DNA of 16,207 bases from an uncultured Clostridia bacterium. Lineage in GTDB: Bacteria > Bacillota > Clostridia > Christensenellales > Borkfalkiaceae. The position numbers were made by a program, and so were the translations under genes. The notes under the pieces are model-generated. The model was given only the letters and a program-made list of their open reading frames with translations, ran no database searches and had not been told where the DNA came from. The stretch is taken from the NCBI GenBank assembly GCA_947177825.1, contig CAMWWA010000011.1, positions 1-16,207 of the forward strand. Direction: 5' to 3'. The number at the start of each line of letters is the position of its first letter. Positions within the stretch are counted from its first letter, which is position 1. This document shows positions 6,080 to 16,207 of the stretch, piece by piece.

Positions 6080-6598
6080 ATGAAAAAGATTAAAAGCTTA
6101 ATCGTTGCACTTATTCTTTTTGTGACTTCTGCAGTAACAGCCTTTGCCCTTGCTGCATGCAATGGCAATGCAGATGAAACGCCTTCGAACAACAAACCAA
6201 ATGATAATTTAGTGTTTGTCGAACAGAGCGATGGTACTTACGGTGTTAAAACCACAAACAAAAATATTGAGGGCGCATTAGTTATTCCCGCGACATACAA
6301 CAATGCCGACGTCAGCATCGTGTTGGGAAAGGCTTTCTATAATTGCACAAAGATCACAAGCGTTGTAATTCCTAATACCGTAAAAATAATCGATACAGAA
6401 GCTTTCTTTAATTGCTATGGTTTGAATAGTGTTACGATTTACCCCTCTATTAAAGAAATCCGAGCAGAGGCTTTCCGCAGTTGCGGTGAATTTGATTTTA
6501 TTAAAATAGGGTCGATTAACAGCTTTAATTATACTACACTGAATAACTCATTCAGCGACTCAAAGCCAAACACCATTTATCAAACTGAATCAAATTGA
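6080..6598 (+). CDS. Small BspA-like leucine-rich-repeat lipoprotein
   Basis: 172 aa. The N-terminus is a lipoprotein signal peptide: basic MKKIK, a hydrophobic stretch and the lipobox LAAC with Cys27. A short polar linker (residues 28-45) follows. The rest carries two to three LRR_5 (BspA-type) repeats, seen as AFYNCTKITSVVIPNTVKII, then AFFNCYGLNSVTI, then AFRSC. Such domains occur on surface proteins and are thought to mediate binding. With so few repeats this may be a truncated or minimal member. Base use is visibly AT-richer than degV and the other neighbours, which suggests recent acquisition. TGAGGT directly follows the degV stop and serves as the ribosome binding site. The ligand and role are unknown. 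Confidence 0.8.
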   Translation: MKKIKSLIVALILFVTSAVTAFALAACNGNADETPSNNKPNDNLVFVEQSDGTYGVKTTNKNIEGALVIPATYNNADVSIVLGKAFYNCTKITSVVIPNTVKIIDTEAFFNCYGLNSVTIYPSIKEIRAEAFRSCGEFDFIKIGSINSFNYTTLNNSFSDSKPNTIYQTESN

Positions 6599-7741: not shown

Positions 7742-8065
7742 TCAGTTGTTACAACCGCAACCGCCGTTGCAGCCGCAGCCCGAACGATTGGAATTGCATC
7801 CGCAGCCGCTGTTGCAGCCGCAGCCGTTACCGTCGCTCTGTGTGCTGAAACCGTTGCCGCCGCTCCAACCGTTGCACCAGTTGAACCAGCAACCGCTATT
7901 GCAGCCGCTGCCGGAGCGGCTTGAATTGCATCCGCAACCGTTGTTGCAACCGCAGCCCGAACGGTTGGAATTGCATCCGCAACCGCTATTGTTGCCACTT
8001 AACAAGGACAATAACCCGCAACCGCACGAGTTGCCGGAACGAGAATTATTACAGCAGAAACACAT
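7742..8065 (-). CDS. Cysteine/glycine/asparagine/serine-rich repeat protein of unknown function
   Basis: 107 aa with 22 cysteines, mostly as CGC triplets separated by Asn, Ser and Gly. It begins MCFCCNNSRSGNSCGCG and carries recurring CGCNSNRSGCGCN blocks near residues 30-42 and 88-100, with a looser copy between. There is no Lys, Glu or His, and four Arg. The middle (WFNWCNGW) is aromatic. No signal peptide, leader-type N-terminus or transmembrane segment is obvious. The DNA repeats too: 44-nt units at 7767-7810, 7899-7942 and 7944-7987, the first and last differing at three bases. AAGGT lies 10 bases before the ATG at 8065, and a hairpin terminator follows, which favours this strand and frame. 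Because of the repeats, other frames are also open, as Gln/Pro- or Ala-rich products without a Shine-Dalgarno. Possible roles are metal binding, a disulfide-crosslinked coat or surface layer, or a modified-peptide precursor. None is shown by the neighbours. Confidence 0.65.
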   Translation of the reverse strand: MCFCCNNSRSGNSCGCGLLSLLSGNNSGCGCNSNRSGCGCNNGCGCNSSRSGSGCNSGCWFNWCNGWSGGNGFSTQSDGNGCGCNSGCGCNSNRSGCGCNGGCGCNN

Positions 8066-13031: not shown

Positions 13032-13685
13032 TTATTTAATCAAAGTCTGCATTATGCGTTCTCGCAGTTGTGAATTTCCGCCGTATGCGCATTTGTTTTC
13101 ATTTTTTAAATCGCATAAGATTGCGCCTTTATTTATTACCACTATGCGGTCGGCAAGGAACACAGCCTCGTCGACGTCGTGCGTGACAAACAGCGTGCAA
13201 CGCCCCTCTTCCGCCTGCAAAGCTTTGAAAAGTTCCATTACTGAAAGCTTGGTCTTTAAATCGAGCGAGGAAAAAGGTTCGTCCATTAAAAGCACTTCCG
13301 ACTTCTTTAAAAACGCACGGCAAAGAGATACCCTCTGCGCCTCGCCGCCCGACAGCTGAGCAGGATATGAATTCAACTTGTCGCCAAGCCCCACCTTTTC
13401 GAGCATTTTTTTTGCCTCGCCGCCGTCCGCGCCGATAAATTTAAGGTTGTCTTCAACCGTCAGATTTGGCATAAGCCGCGAATTCTGAAAGACGTAGGAT
13501 ACGCTTTTTTTGGTAATTTCGCCCTCGTAATTAATCAGCCCCGCAACGGCGTTTAAAAGCGTGGTCTTGCCGCAGCCGCTTTCGCCGAGAATACAGGTTA
13601 TTCCGCTATCCTCTATATCAAGGCTGAAATTTTCATAGACGGCGCGGCTTTGATATTTTTTTGTTAAATTCTTAATCGATATCAT
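13032..13685 (-). CDS. ABC importer ATP-binding protein (NitT/TauT-like)
   Basis: Cytoplasmic ATPase of an ABC uptake system, most like the SsuB/TauB/NrtD class. 217 aa. Walker A GESGCGKTT (34-42), Q-loop Q67 in YVFQNSRLMPN, signature LSGGEAQRV (111-119), Walker B VLLMDEP (131-137) and switch His169 in FVTHD are all intact. I choose ATG 13685: its ATGA overlaps the permease stop, and AGGTGG lies 8 bases upstream. A GTG four codons earlier is also open but lies on that Shine-Dalgarno. It is the last gene of the operon. At 217 residues it is somewhat shorter than SsuB/TauB (about 250). Confidence 0.92.
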   Translation of the reverse strand: MISIKNLTKKYQSRAVYENFSLDIEDSGITCILGESGCGKTTLLNAVAGLINYEGEITKKSVSYVFQNSRLMPNLTVEDNLKFIGADGGEAKKMLEKVGLGDKLNSYPAQLSGGEAQRVSLCRAFLKKSEVLLMDEPFSSLDLKTKLSVMELFKALQAEEGRCTLFVTHDVDEAVFLADRIVVINKGAILCDLKNENKCAYGGNSQLRERIMQTLIK

Positions 13686-14446
13686 GTCCGTTTCCACCTG
13701 AACGAAACCCTGGTTATGACGAAAAACAACCCTTCGATTAACAGCCCCGCAACTACGGATACCAGCGTCAGCGCGGCCAGACGTGCAATTTGGGTTGCAA
13801 AGTTTGCCGACTTCATCATTTCGCCGATACCGTTGCCGGCATAGGCGAGCACCTCGGCGGAGATTGTAAGCTTTAAGGCGAACGAAAGCACCGTACCCAG
13901 CTGCATAACTATGGCGGGCGCAATCTGCGGAATTATTATTTTGGAAAATACGGCGCGCCTTTTTACGCCGTACACCTTAGCCATATCCAGAAGCTCTTTA
14001 TCAACGCCATCGACAGCGGCGGATATCTGCGCGTAAAACATGGGAAAGACGACAAGCATAGTGACAACAACGGGCGTAAATGCCTTAAACGTGAGCATTA
14101 TGATAAGCGTAACCGCCATCGTAGGCACCGTGCGGCATACGGCGATTATAGGGCTGAAAAAATTTTTGAAGGGCGCGTATATCAGTCCCAACACTATACA
14201 GAGCGCGGCAATTACAAAGGATAAGACAACCGCCGCAAGAGTGCGCGCCAGCGTCATACCCAGCGCCTTCCAGAAAGCGCCCTCGGCAAACAGCTTAAAA
14301 AACTGCAGGAGCGTTTTGCCAATCGACGGTATGATTAGCTCGTTGGGCTTCACGCTCCAGCTCACCGCCCACGCGGCAAACATAAAGGCTATTGAAAGCA
14401 CGGCAAAAGCTACGCTCAGTCCGTGGCGCTTTAAAAATGCGGTCAT
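13682..14446 (-). CDS. ABC importer permease (NitT/TauT-like, binding-protein-dependent)
   Basis: Inner membrane permease of the same uptake system; 254 aa, about six hydrophobic segments, SsuC/TauC-like. The cytoplasmic coupling loop that docks with the ATPase is visible as AKVYGVKRRAVFSKIIIPQI. An IPSIGKTLLQFFKLF segment after the first membrane helix is typical of the family. The ATG at 14446 overlaps the substrate-binding protein stop as ATGA, with AGGGGAG inside the upstream gene. The frame is open for 82 further codons upstream, but that is antisense-style sequence inside the binding protein gene and basic in composition, so I reject it. The three transporter genes are thus translationally coupled, which fits fixed stoichiometry. 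Confidence 0.93.
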   Translation of the reverse strand: MTAFLKRHGLSVAFAVLSIAFMFAAWAVSWSVKPNELIIPSIGKTLLQFFKLFAEGAFWKALGMTLARTLAAVVLSFVIAALCIVLGLIYAPFKNFFSPIIAVCRTVPTMAVTLIIMLTFKAFTPVVVTMLVVFPMFYAQISAAVDGVDKELLDMAKVYGVKRRAVFSKIIIPQIAPAIVMQLGTVLSFALKLTISAEVLAYAGNGIGEMMKSANFATQIARLAALTLVSVVAGLLIEGLFFVITRVSFRWKRT

Positions 14447-15480
14447 ACGCTCCCCTGCGTGTATTCGATATAGTATTTTTCCAAAATCATTTTGAAGGTC
14501 AGTCCGGGCACGGCGGAAAGATTGACTACCCCCACGCTTTTGCCTTCCAATTTCTGCGACAGATTGTCCGCAGTTAACAAAGTGCCGTCGGAAGAAATAA
14601 TAAACAGATTGCCGTGCGTTACGCCGCCCAACAGCTGATATCTGCTGCCGTTGCCCAACAGCTTTGCCGCGGCGTTTACGGGCAGTACGCACAAATCCGC
14701 GTTGCTTGCCTCGTCACTATAAGTCACGCAGGAGTTGATTGCATTTGCGGCAATAACGTGAAAGTCGAGCGTTTTGCCGACGTCGGGCGTTGCGCACATC
14801 ATCTTTGCCATAGAAAGCGCGGGCGCGCCGTCGGGCATATAGACCGAAACGGTCGTCTTGCTTTGGTTTACAGTCGTTGCGGATATTCCGTCAACGTTGC
14901 AGAAGAACGCGTCCTCGCACTGTCCGAACATTGCGGGGCTGATTGCGTTTACCGAGTTCATATAGCTTAAAATACCCTGCTTCGCCTCAGCCGCCTTTTT
15001 AAAGTAAATGTTGCAGTTTTTCACAACCGTAGCCGACAGCATGGGCGCTTTTAACGTCGTGCCGCCGTGCGAGTTGATTGCCGTGACAATTTCGGTATAT
15101 GAAGTTTGGGCGTCAAGCCAGTTTGCGGTGGCTGCATACTCGGTTAAAAACTTGTTGACGAAAGCGCCGTCGTTTTCTATCAAGCTCTTTTTTGCAACCA
15201 GAACCGCCTGCGGATAGCTTTCCTCCCCGTAGAGCTGTTGAAGGCTTGCCACGTTCGAGTACTCAGTTCCTGCAGCCGTAAGTGCCTTTACTTTTGCCGT
15301 TGCCGCAGGCTCGGGTACAACGTAATACGAAATTCCGTCCACCCTGCCGACGTCGTCGGAGCTCACCTCAACGAGAGTAACCCCTTTCGTATTATTCTTA
15401 TTGCAGCCTACTGTCATAGCTGACACGCCCGCGCACAGTGCAAGAGCGCAAACCGAAACCAATATCTTTTTCCCTTTCAT
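14443..15480 (-). CDS. Substrate-binding lipoprotein of ABC importer with apparently permuted lobes
   Basis: 345 aa. A lipoprotein signal peptide ends at Cys26 (MTVGC). The mature part has the pieces of a NitT/TauT-type (NMT1/SsuA-like) binding protein in the wrong order. Residues 32-195 match what is normally the second part: VTLVEVSS, then YYVVPEPAATA (52-62), YPQAVLVAKKSLIENDGAFV (89-108), and a helical tail ending near AFFCN. After a polar linker (196-208), residues 209-340 match what is normally the start: VSVYMPDGAPALSMAKMM (211-228), ADLCVLPVNAAAKLL (261-275), GGVTHGNLFIISS (285-297), LEGKSVGVVN and VPGLTFKMILEKYYIE. The protein ends at the lobe junction. This is consistent with a circular permutation at the inter-lobe hinge. 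AAGGAG lies 9 bases before the ATG. The ligand is unknown. It follows the regulator gene by 21 bases and overlaps the permease by 4. Confidence 0.9.
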   Translation of the reverse strand: MKGKKILVSVCALALCAGVSAMTVGCNKNNTKGVTLVEVSSDDVGRVDGISYYVVPEPAATAKVKALTAAGTEYSNVASLQQLYGEESYPQAVLVAKKSLIENDGAFVNKFLTEYAATANWLDAQTSYTEIVTAINSHGGTTLKAPMLSATVVKNCNIYFKKAAEAKQGILSYMNSVNAISPAMFGQCEDAFFCNVDGISATTVNQSKTTVSVYMPDGAPALSMAKMMCATPDVGKTLDFHVIAANAINSCVTYSDEASNADLCVLPVNAAAKLLGNGSRYQLLGGVTHGNLFIISSDGTLLTADNLSQKLEGKSVGVVNLSAVPGLTFKMILEKYYIEYTQGSV

Positions 15481-15501: not shown

Positions 15502-15750
15502 TCACTTCTTACTCGTAACGGTCTTGGCGGAAACTCCGTCAAGCATACCGATTTTGCCCGTAATCTGGTTGATAATTTCAGTAGGCGCGTCCACCACGAT
15601 ACACAAAACCGAAACGCCCTTCTGCCTATACGGTATTCCCATTCTGCCCACAACGTAGTCACCGTGGGCGGATAAGATGCCGTTGATTTGCGCGCTTGCC
15701 TCGCGCTTTTCGACGATAATGCTTATTATTGCAATTCTGTTTTCGGACAT
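15502..15750 (-). CDS. TM1266-like putative iron-only hydrogenase system regulator
   Basis: 82 aa, a single ACT/ferredoxin-like small domain. The sequence IAIISIIVEKREASAQINGI, then HGDYVVGRMGIPYR, then GVSVLCIVVDAPTEIINQIT and GMLDGVSAKT, follows the TM1266 family, annotated as a putative regulator tied to [FeFe]-hydrogenase systems. No hydrogenase gene is in this window, so the link rests on the family. I start at ATG 15750 (MSENRIAI), 7 bases after GGGGAG. A 20-codon upstream extension from 15810 lacks a ribosome site, adds an unrelated cysteine-rich stretch and lies in the likely leader RNA. It is the first gene of the transporter operon, so it may sense the transported compound or the redox/metal state and control the operon. 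Confidence 0.82.
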   Translation of the reverse strand: MSENRIAIISIIVEKREASAQINGILSAHGDYVVGRMGIPYRQKGVSVLCIVVDAPTEIINQITGKIGMLDGVSAKTVTSKK

Positions 15751-15856
15751 AAAAAAACTCCCCGCGCACCGCAAGAGAGAACACAAAAAACGCACGCAAA
15801 AATTACGCACGGATATTCAGGCTCTTCACTCTCAGGCGCACCTTTGAATTCAGATG
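15751..15856 (-). promoter_or_regulatory. Candidate structured 5' leader of the transporter operon
   Basis: About 105 nt separate the predicted start site from the regulator ATG. CUCUC (15779-15775) can pair with GGGAG of the ribosome site (15762-15758) around an 11-base loop, and an upstream GAGAG (15833-15829) could pair with the same CUCUC and free it. GGTGCGC occurs twice (15842-15836 and 15770-15764), the second next to the ribosome site. A CTGAGAG occurs as in TPP riboswitches, but the rest of that consensus is missing. No known riboswitch class is recognised. Confidence 0.35.
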
Positions 15857-15890: not shown

Positions 15891-15910
15891 GTATTTTACA
15901 TACTGTGAAT

Positions 15911-16207
15911 ATGAAAAAGATTAAATTAAGTATCATTTGCACCGCAGCTCTTTTGCTTGCTCTGCCCTTTGCGGGCTGTATGCACGCCGATTCGGGCGAC
16001 ACCGCCACGCAGGGAACCACTCAACTTACGCAGGAAGTTAAGGACGAAAAGACCACCGAAGACGAATGTCCGGACGGTGATTGCGACGATGACGACGGCA
16101 AGTGCCCCGGGGAAGAGTGCCCCGACGATAAATGCCCCGACGGCGACGGTGAATGCCCTGACGGCAAGTGCCCGAAGAGAAGGCTTCCGCCCCGTCGCAG
16201 AGGCAAG
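15911..16207 (+). CDS. Cys/Asp-rich repeat lipoprotein (partial, runs off right edge)
   Basis: 99 codons are visible with no stop. MKKIK plus a hydrophobic stretch ending LPFAGC gives a lipoprotein signal with Cys23. A Thr/Gln-rich linker (25-50) follows. Residues 51-88 are a run of short ECPDGDC/KCPGEEC/KCPDGDG-like units with seven cysteines, each but one followed by proline, and many Asp and Glu. It then turns abruptly basic (KRRLPPRRRGK) at the window edge. Acidic Cys-Pro repeats on a membrane-anchored protein suggest metal binding or disulfide-linked surface material, but I recognise no family. No Shine-Dalgarno is visible before the ATG, and a GTG two codons earlier is in frame. The first part uses common local codons, so it does not look foreign. 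Confidence 0.7.
   Translation, partial: MKKIKLSIICTAALLLALPFAGCMHADSGDTATQGTTQLTQEVKDEKTTEDECPDGDCDDDDGKCPGEECPDDKCPDGDGECPDGKCPKRRLPPRRRGK

Follow-up and report, generated by a model that had tools for sequence, protein, structure and literature searches.

A circularly permuted substrate-binding lipoprotein of a Clostridia ABC importer and evidence for a labile chain order in its family

Can the halves of an importer's binding protein stand in reversed order in a working gene, and by what route would they come to do so? The locus that raises this question lies in a stretch of 16,207 nucleotides (hereafter the window, contig CAMWWA010000011.1) from an uncultured Clostridia bacterium, taken from a draft assembly of 210 contigs that is 83% complete. 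A sequence-only reading of the window had claimed that one gene encodes, in this order, a signal peptide, the C-half, a linker and the N-half of a NitT/TauT-type substrate-binding protein (SBP). We consider it highly likely that the explanation given here holds as a whole, namely that the gene encodes a permuted importer lipoprotein from a family in which chain order has changed recurrently, by a route of duplication and loss, and in which such genes are exchanged as cassettes. This goes beyond the earlier claims in that the permutation recurs, reverts and passes between species.

The window gene and its chain order

The gene (14443..15480, on the reverse strand, as are all its parts and neighbours named below) encodes 345 amino acids, predicted to form a circularly permuted NitT/TauT-type lipoprotein of the type that we call P1, in which a segment S is followed by the C part, a linker and the N-half. 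Residues 1-26 (15403..15480) comprise the signal peptide and what reads, by the usual rules, as a lipobox, with Cys26 invariant in an alignment of 46 permuted relatives. Segment S, at about residues 33-66 (VTLVEV..YYVVPEPAATAKV; 15283..15384), stands at the N-terminus in P1 proteins, at the C-terminus in a second type, P2, and internally in canonical forms. It is followed by the remaining C-half (about residues 67-200; 14881..15282), equivalent to the C-terminal part of canonical relatives, by a new linker from the old C-terminus to the old N-terminus (about residues 201-208; 14857..14880), and by the N-half (residues 209-345; 14446..14856), which is N-terminal in canonical relatives and here ends in a loop of lobe 2.

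The claimed order was confirmed when the halves (residues 32-200 and 209-345) were aligned separately, since they matched canonical homologues in opposite order: on the canonical protein P0059, the C-half fell on residues 170-323 (E 5e-25) and the N-half on residues 33-164 (E 2e-56). A profile of the 46 permuted proteins matched PDB 3hn0 in swapped order as well (E 9.5e-10 for the whole sequence), with profile positions 207-294 on chain residues 5-92 and positions 142-188 on residues 224-270; two further matches of this profile, to human RPRD2 (E 0.003-0.006), look like chance. The same chain was matched, via the N-half, by a profile of 14 canonical proteins. A collinear reading of the SBP was rejected on these swapped-order matches to the canonical homologues and to 3hn0. 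The window protein thus shares with NitT/TauT SBPs carrying the NMT1/THI5 domain (PF09084, for example 3hn0) a homology that spans both halves of this type II group, and an operon with permease and ATPase genes, but its order is C-half then N-half instead of the canonical one.

The position of the stop was less well judged in the sequence-only reading, which had put it at the hinge between the lobes; as far as can be told from the sequence, the new ends lie instead in a loop inside lobe 2, a placement that presumes the usual type II topology. In our model the old ends would be joined by the short linker and the new ends created in that loop, and the permuted protein would still fold as a two-lobe type II SBP, with a small ligand bound in the cleft and the membrane anchor moved to lobe 2.

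The same order recurs in related genomes, in many separate assemblies. Among the best 120 of 1593 homologues, a list biased to the query's own permuted order, 106 were permuted and 14 canonical; adding 104 more from the list for a canonical query gave 106 permuted and 118 canonical, with all 224 of 224 classified and both lists leaning to the order of their query. The motifs PDGAP, P-N, T-GN, EP and PQA are invariant or almost so in both the permuted and the canonical alignments. We therefore regard the window gene as a circularly permuted NitT/TauT-type SBP, a reading that the alignments support, and predict that it is functional.

Standard family models largely miss such proteins. The window protein matched no Pfam family at E<=1, and its sole NCBIfam match, SsuA_fam, scored 13.7 bits against a cut-off of 163.5 and came without a name telling the ligand. 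The NMT1 model was matched at E<=0.1 by 14 of 46 permuted relatives versus 13 of 14 canonical ones, suggesting that the failure is due in part to the swapped chain order and that linear family models under-detect permuted proteins. All eight permuted proteins that carry an NCBI name among the homologues listed are called 'hypothetical', as are some canonical relatives.

The chain can be cut at three sites, with lobe boundaries that we presume from type II SBPs in general. In P1 the mature chain starts at segment S and ends past the first helix of lobe 2; in P2 it starts after PEPAAS, at the DLQ-LYG stretch, and S closes it; in P3 it runs from the opening strand of lobe 2 round to the first inter-lobe crossing (the hinge). 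A set of 112 proteins gathered with a P3 query, the query included, held 26 in P3 order and 74 in canonical order. The assignment of P0328-P0330 to an order L2-N1-C was judged, on inspection by eye, to come from a chance match, and these proteins were read as canonical.

Permuted and canonical forms occur side by side in each of the genera g1, g19, g60, g62 and g69, and 44 chosen genomes were typed as 11 permuted and 33 canonical. In an even sample of the window's order, 111 of 297 genomes had a match at E 1e-20; in a sample of the class, 8 of 342 had one at E 1e-22, two of these eight outside the order. The family therefore seems centred on the window's order. Viral contigs that were searched held no relative of the SBP, and weak C-half matches outside SBPs proved to lie in GTPases that we presume to be EngA-like.

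A permuted SBP is known from another fold: TpMglB-2 (Tp0684) of Treponema pallidum, a glucose-binding protein of 'Type Ic / Cluster Bc', is a permuted type I SBP by crystal structure (PMC4990184). Judging from the portions of that source available to us, it resembles the window protein in its lipid anchor, its service to an ABC importer and its circularly permuted chain; it differs from the window family, known here from sequence, in its type I fold, its sugar ligand and its different cut. The same portions describe one permuted subclass, and no order-switching orthologues in a genus, several cut sites or reversion. The window protein itself has 3hn0 as its sole clear PDB relative and matches no MglB-like chain, so that a type I, MglB-like fold finds no basis in its sequence.

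In-place exchange of blocks and the route of permutation

A direct view of how the order changes comes from the genus g62, in which the permuted gene of G209 and the canonical gene of G232 lie between collinear flanks (DNA identity 82% upstream, including the signal peptide, and 78% downstream), with the inner blocks exchanged in place (N-half 80%, S plus C-half 71%). The P3 gene of G377 and the canonical gene of G310 show the same block exchange with collinear flanks, at 66-77%. Permuted and canonical forms reach up to 69% protein identity, and, inspected by eye, the linkers of permuted proteins look similar to the spacer at the old N-terminus of canonical ones.

One canonical protein of g62 appears to record a return. 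After its lipobox cysteine, G326 carries a stretch that can be aligned to the joint inside the permuted proteins of G209, G265 and G166, and that includes the tail with which their C-halves end, a tail absent from G326's own C-terminus; with its last 12 residues removed, the stretch still scored above all 2000 shuffles. Since canonical relatives from other genera have a tail of this kind at their C-terminus, we read G326 as derived from a permuted form, that is, as a reversion to canonical order that keeps a relic of the permuted joint. Among the four canonical g62 genomes read, this is the one with the relic, the stretch being absent from G232, G254 and G275. When 223 canonical spacers (a set to which G326 does not belong) were searched for the tail motif, one, in L128, had it, judged to be chance. 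P0212, a canonical protein inside the main P1 group, may be a second reversion; no relic of a permuted joint was found in it.

A further protein, the 425-aa mosaic P0331, carries at its N-terminus the N-half's first strand and helix, followed by a repetitive linker, S, the C-half and the rest of the N-half, a divided N-half as would be expected from complementary loss after duplication. The likely route would be a duplication in place followed by complementary loss, during which the signal peptide would keep its position. The sequence-only reading had likewise proposed duplication and partial loss, and the linkers, the G326 relic and P0331 give that route indirect support, while the tandem intermediate it implies is missing from the proteins and loci examined. 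No tandem duplicate appeared among the 224 proteins and the loci scanned, nor around 93 SBP genes, and near the latter no residual second half was seen apart from that of G105, in which an N-half lies behind an in-frame stop.

This lack of a tandem duplicate is what an alternative route would predict, in which the gene was split repeatedly into half genes that then fused in the other order. Fission and fusion is a recognised route to permutation, according to the part of the source available to us (PMC3320104). In the pairs described above, however, the signal peptide and both flanks stay while the inner blocks swap, and duplication with later complementary loss accounts better for the G326 relic and for the split N-half of P0331, which leaves fission and fusion improbable.

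Recurrence across the family

Chain order changes repeatedly on trees of the SBP itself, built after all sequences had been rotated into canonical order; each change counted may be a gain or a loss of the permuted form. A tree of 95 rows required 11 changes of form, seven of them forced by starred (well-supported) branches, and a tree of 148 rows again 11 (8 forced), with similar numbers for the N-half alone (11, 6 forced), for the C-half alone (12, 8 forced) and for core columns free of the joints (11, 7 forced; L086, P0018, P0193, G071, G080 and G105 were dropped from this set). More careful trees gave 11 changes for 46 chosen rows (bootstrap 9-12, 7 forced) and 17 for 64 chosen rows across the order (bootstrap 16-17, 13 forced), counts that are not frequencies, as the 46 rows and the 28 added for the 64-row tree were hand-picked for both forms. 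In the 64-row set, the number of changes was not low by comparison with random relabelling, as few changes being needed in 72 of 500 shuffles. A few labels were set by hand: L092 as P2 and L093 as divergent P1 in the 95-row tree (L093 as plain P1 in later trees), and G153 and G200 as P2 in the 64-row tree. L320 (G360) is a very divergent P2-type protein on an end branch of 3.9 changes per column, and its place in the tree is unsure.

A single clade of all permuted rows was rejected (p 3e-55). With groups named after the trees had been seen, and omitting P0212, the canonical row inside the main P1 group, AU tests further rejected joining the main P1 group with L059/P0115 (1.7e-4), with L069 (9e-4) or with the L057 group (2e-49), joining the two P2 groups (2e-4), and joining the g62 P1 proteins with G316 (4e-62). 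They did not reject as one clade the window's group plus the main P1 group (p 0.29), the tested P1 groups of the window's genus (p 0.0675), the P3 pair (p 0.30) and the g62 P1 trio (p 0.17). Several independent changes are therefore well supported, and a separate origin of the window's own group is not.

It could be asked whether one ancient permutation, scattered afterwards by gene transfer and tree error only, would suffice. Transfer is clearly at work, and within the window's genus the SBP tree needs two changes (1 forced), with one origin there not rejected. The changes were counted on the gene tree of the SBP, however, which transfer leaves unaltered, and one clade is rejected, as are the joins of the P1, the P2 and the g62 P1 and G316 groups, chosen as these were after the trees; together with the existence of three cut sites, this makes a single permutation very unlikely. 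We would rather suggest that chain order in the family has changed repeatedly at three cut sites, all in or beside lobe 2, with at least one return to canonical order.

Other families offer partial parallels, described here from the portions of the sources available to us. DNA methyltransferases and type I restriction S subunits have more than one permuted order per family, and partly duplicated intermediates are documented for the methyltransferases (PMC3320104, PMC6158711); those cases concern deep splits between groups or engineered permutants, whereas here orthologues of one genus differ at one locus. The cpRAS GTPases resemble the SBP family as natural circular permutants with a scattered distribution, but the authors who described them make the case for one origin and later losses (PMC2430557), in contrast to the recurrence seen here. 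The accessible text of the open-licence literature, a scope without subscription papers and preprints, yielded neither a permuted NitT/TauT (type II) SBP nor a recurrently permuted SBP family. If our reading is true, this would be the first family, to our knowledge, in which natural circular permutation can be traced as ongoing among orthologues. The mechanism of such permutation has mostly been inferred from old events; here sister species have permuted and canonical genes at one operon position, the proteins of the two forms are up to 69% identical and one reversion is half erased, so that the steps could be traced in the DNA and put to experimental test, as a natural experiment on the ways in which protein chains can be rearranged.

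Exchange within the genus, selection and the operon

Within the window's genus, represented by draft assemblies throughout, 90 of 93 genomes have the SBP: 37 permuted, 52 canonical and one (G098, split between contigs) without an order call; G020, G023 and G060 gave no match. The form hardly follows the species tree, as on an ArgS tree of 80 genomes (rows of <=380 residues dropped) the canonical label changes 23 times against a shuffled mean of 25.6, with 81 of 500 shuffles as low. Across the gene trees of the genus, the changes of form numbered 24 for TM1266, 21 for ArgS, 18 for the ATPase, eight for the permease and two (1 forced) for the SBP. Among 28 genome pairs with ArgS identity >0.90, the SBP cores were 0.64-0.92 identical in the 15 pairs of the same form and 0.43-0.49 identical in the 13 pairs of different form.

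The DNA of close relatives locates the replacement. Canonical G095 and permuted G090 have 96% DNA identity upstream of the gene and across the signal-peptide codons, beyond which homology breaks. The window's nearest relative of known form, G066 (ArgS 96%), is canonical; its DNA aligns with that of the window at 86-88% on either flank, and the alignment is lost immediately ahead of the SBP start and within the N-terminal region of the ATPase gene; G023, at 97% ArgS identity to the window, is without an SBP match. SBP and permease are thus replaced together, as one cassette, and a replacement of this kind probably accounts for a gain of the form in the window or a loss in its sister. Compared with L208/G066, homology in the window's ATPase gene (13032-13697) breaks at 13622, near the N-terminal end, and the exchanged cassette therefore extends into that gene.

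For this genus a single origin of the permuted form is compatible with the tests, and permuted and canonical forms alike spread in exchanged cassettes of SBP and permease. The two orders would represent old allele classes that replace one another at one locus together with the permease, the left crossover falling at the start of the SBP gene or within the signal peptide. Diversifying selection might act on a surface lipoprotein whose alleles evolve fast and are exchanged. For the family at large, we think it likely that chain order is a labile trait, with many in-place permutations at three sites that can revert and leave relics, and that within a genus it behaves like an old two-allele polymorphism exchanged with the permease between species.

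A programmed or phase-variable rearrangement that switches the order within a population could also make sister genomes of 96-98% ArgS identity differ in form, but the SBP cores of such sisters are merely 43-44% identical and therefore neither form was made from the other by rearrangement; a repeat scan found nothing informative around the gene beyond weak short repeats, no second half lay in the 93 loci scanned, and we give phase variation very little credence. One MAG (RGIG4556) has the same SBP match on two contigs, L080 and L091, either a duplication or duplicate contigs; in the window's own genome the SBP has one match.

The probable functionality claimed in the sequence-only reading is supported by purifying selection and by a conserved operon, besides the recurrence of the order in many separate assemblies. 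In eight permuted pairs dN/dS was 0.086-0.167 (0.086 for the window and L050, 0.113 for the window and L051), and in two canonical pairs 0.259 and 0.295; single values are rough, as dS is >1 for several of the pairs and stop-to-stop frames were used for the genome pairs. Decay of the permuted gene, or an error of assembly, as the fragmented draft and an in-frame stop in a permuted relative, G105, might suggest, is scarcely credible given these dN/dS values against two separate assemblies of the same order, on which decay was rejected, the 37 genomes of the genus that share the order, and its presence on contigs of 214 to 973 kb in other genera. The SBP gene of G105 (C84) is permuted, with the stop in its N-half; it may itself reflect decay or an assembly error.

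The transporter operon was correctly recognised. The SBP stop overlaps the likely start of a permease gene in an ATGA (14443..14446; the start codon is inferred), and the permease (BPD_transp_1; 13682..14446; PF00528, E 5e-18, above cut-off) is followed by an ABC ATPase (13032..13697; PF00005, E 4e-30), so that the gene product would serve, anchored by lipid, as the binding protein of an ABC importer that has one permease gene and one ATPase gene. The conserved upstream neighbour is a gene of the TM1266 family (15502..15810; PF21699, E 1e-28; TIGR03959 above cut-off). The order TM1266, SBP, permease, ATPase was found in all the loci of the genus that were examined closely, seven permuted and 13 canonical. 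Among the best 80 named of 192 loci, some of them from the same genomes, all three neighbours were present in 15 of 23 canonical, 30 of 42 P1 and 11 of 15 P2 loci; short contigs and diverged neighbours may be part of the cause in the others.

Most loci of either form have the TM1266-family gene ahead of the SBP; by its family name alone, this gene points to [FeFe]-hydrogenase biology; the titles and abstracts in the literature searched include none on its function. Elsewhere in the window, a 107-aa reading frame (7742-8065, reverse strand) consists mostly of Cys/Gly/Asn repeats (GCGCN-like), with overlapping frames that are repetitive too. A short likely lipoprotein at 6080-6598 (forward strand) bears a presumed likeness to BspA-type leucine-rich surface proteins, and another likely lipoprotein begins at 15905-16207 (forward strand), with Cys- and Asp-rich repeats (CPDGxC-like) that run past the contig end.
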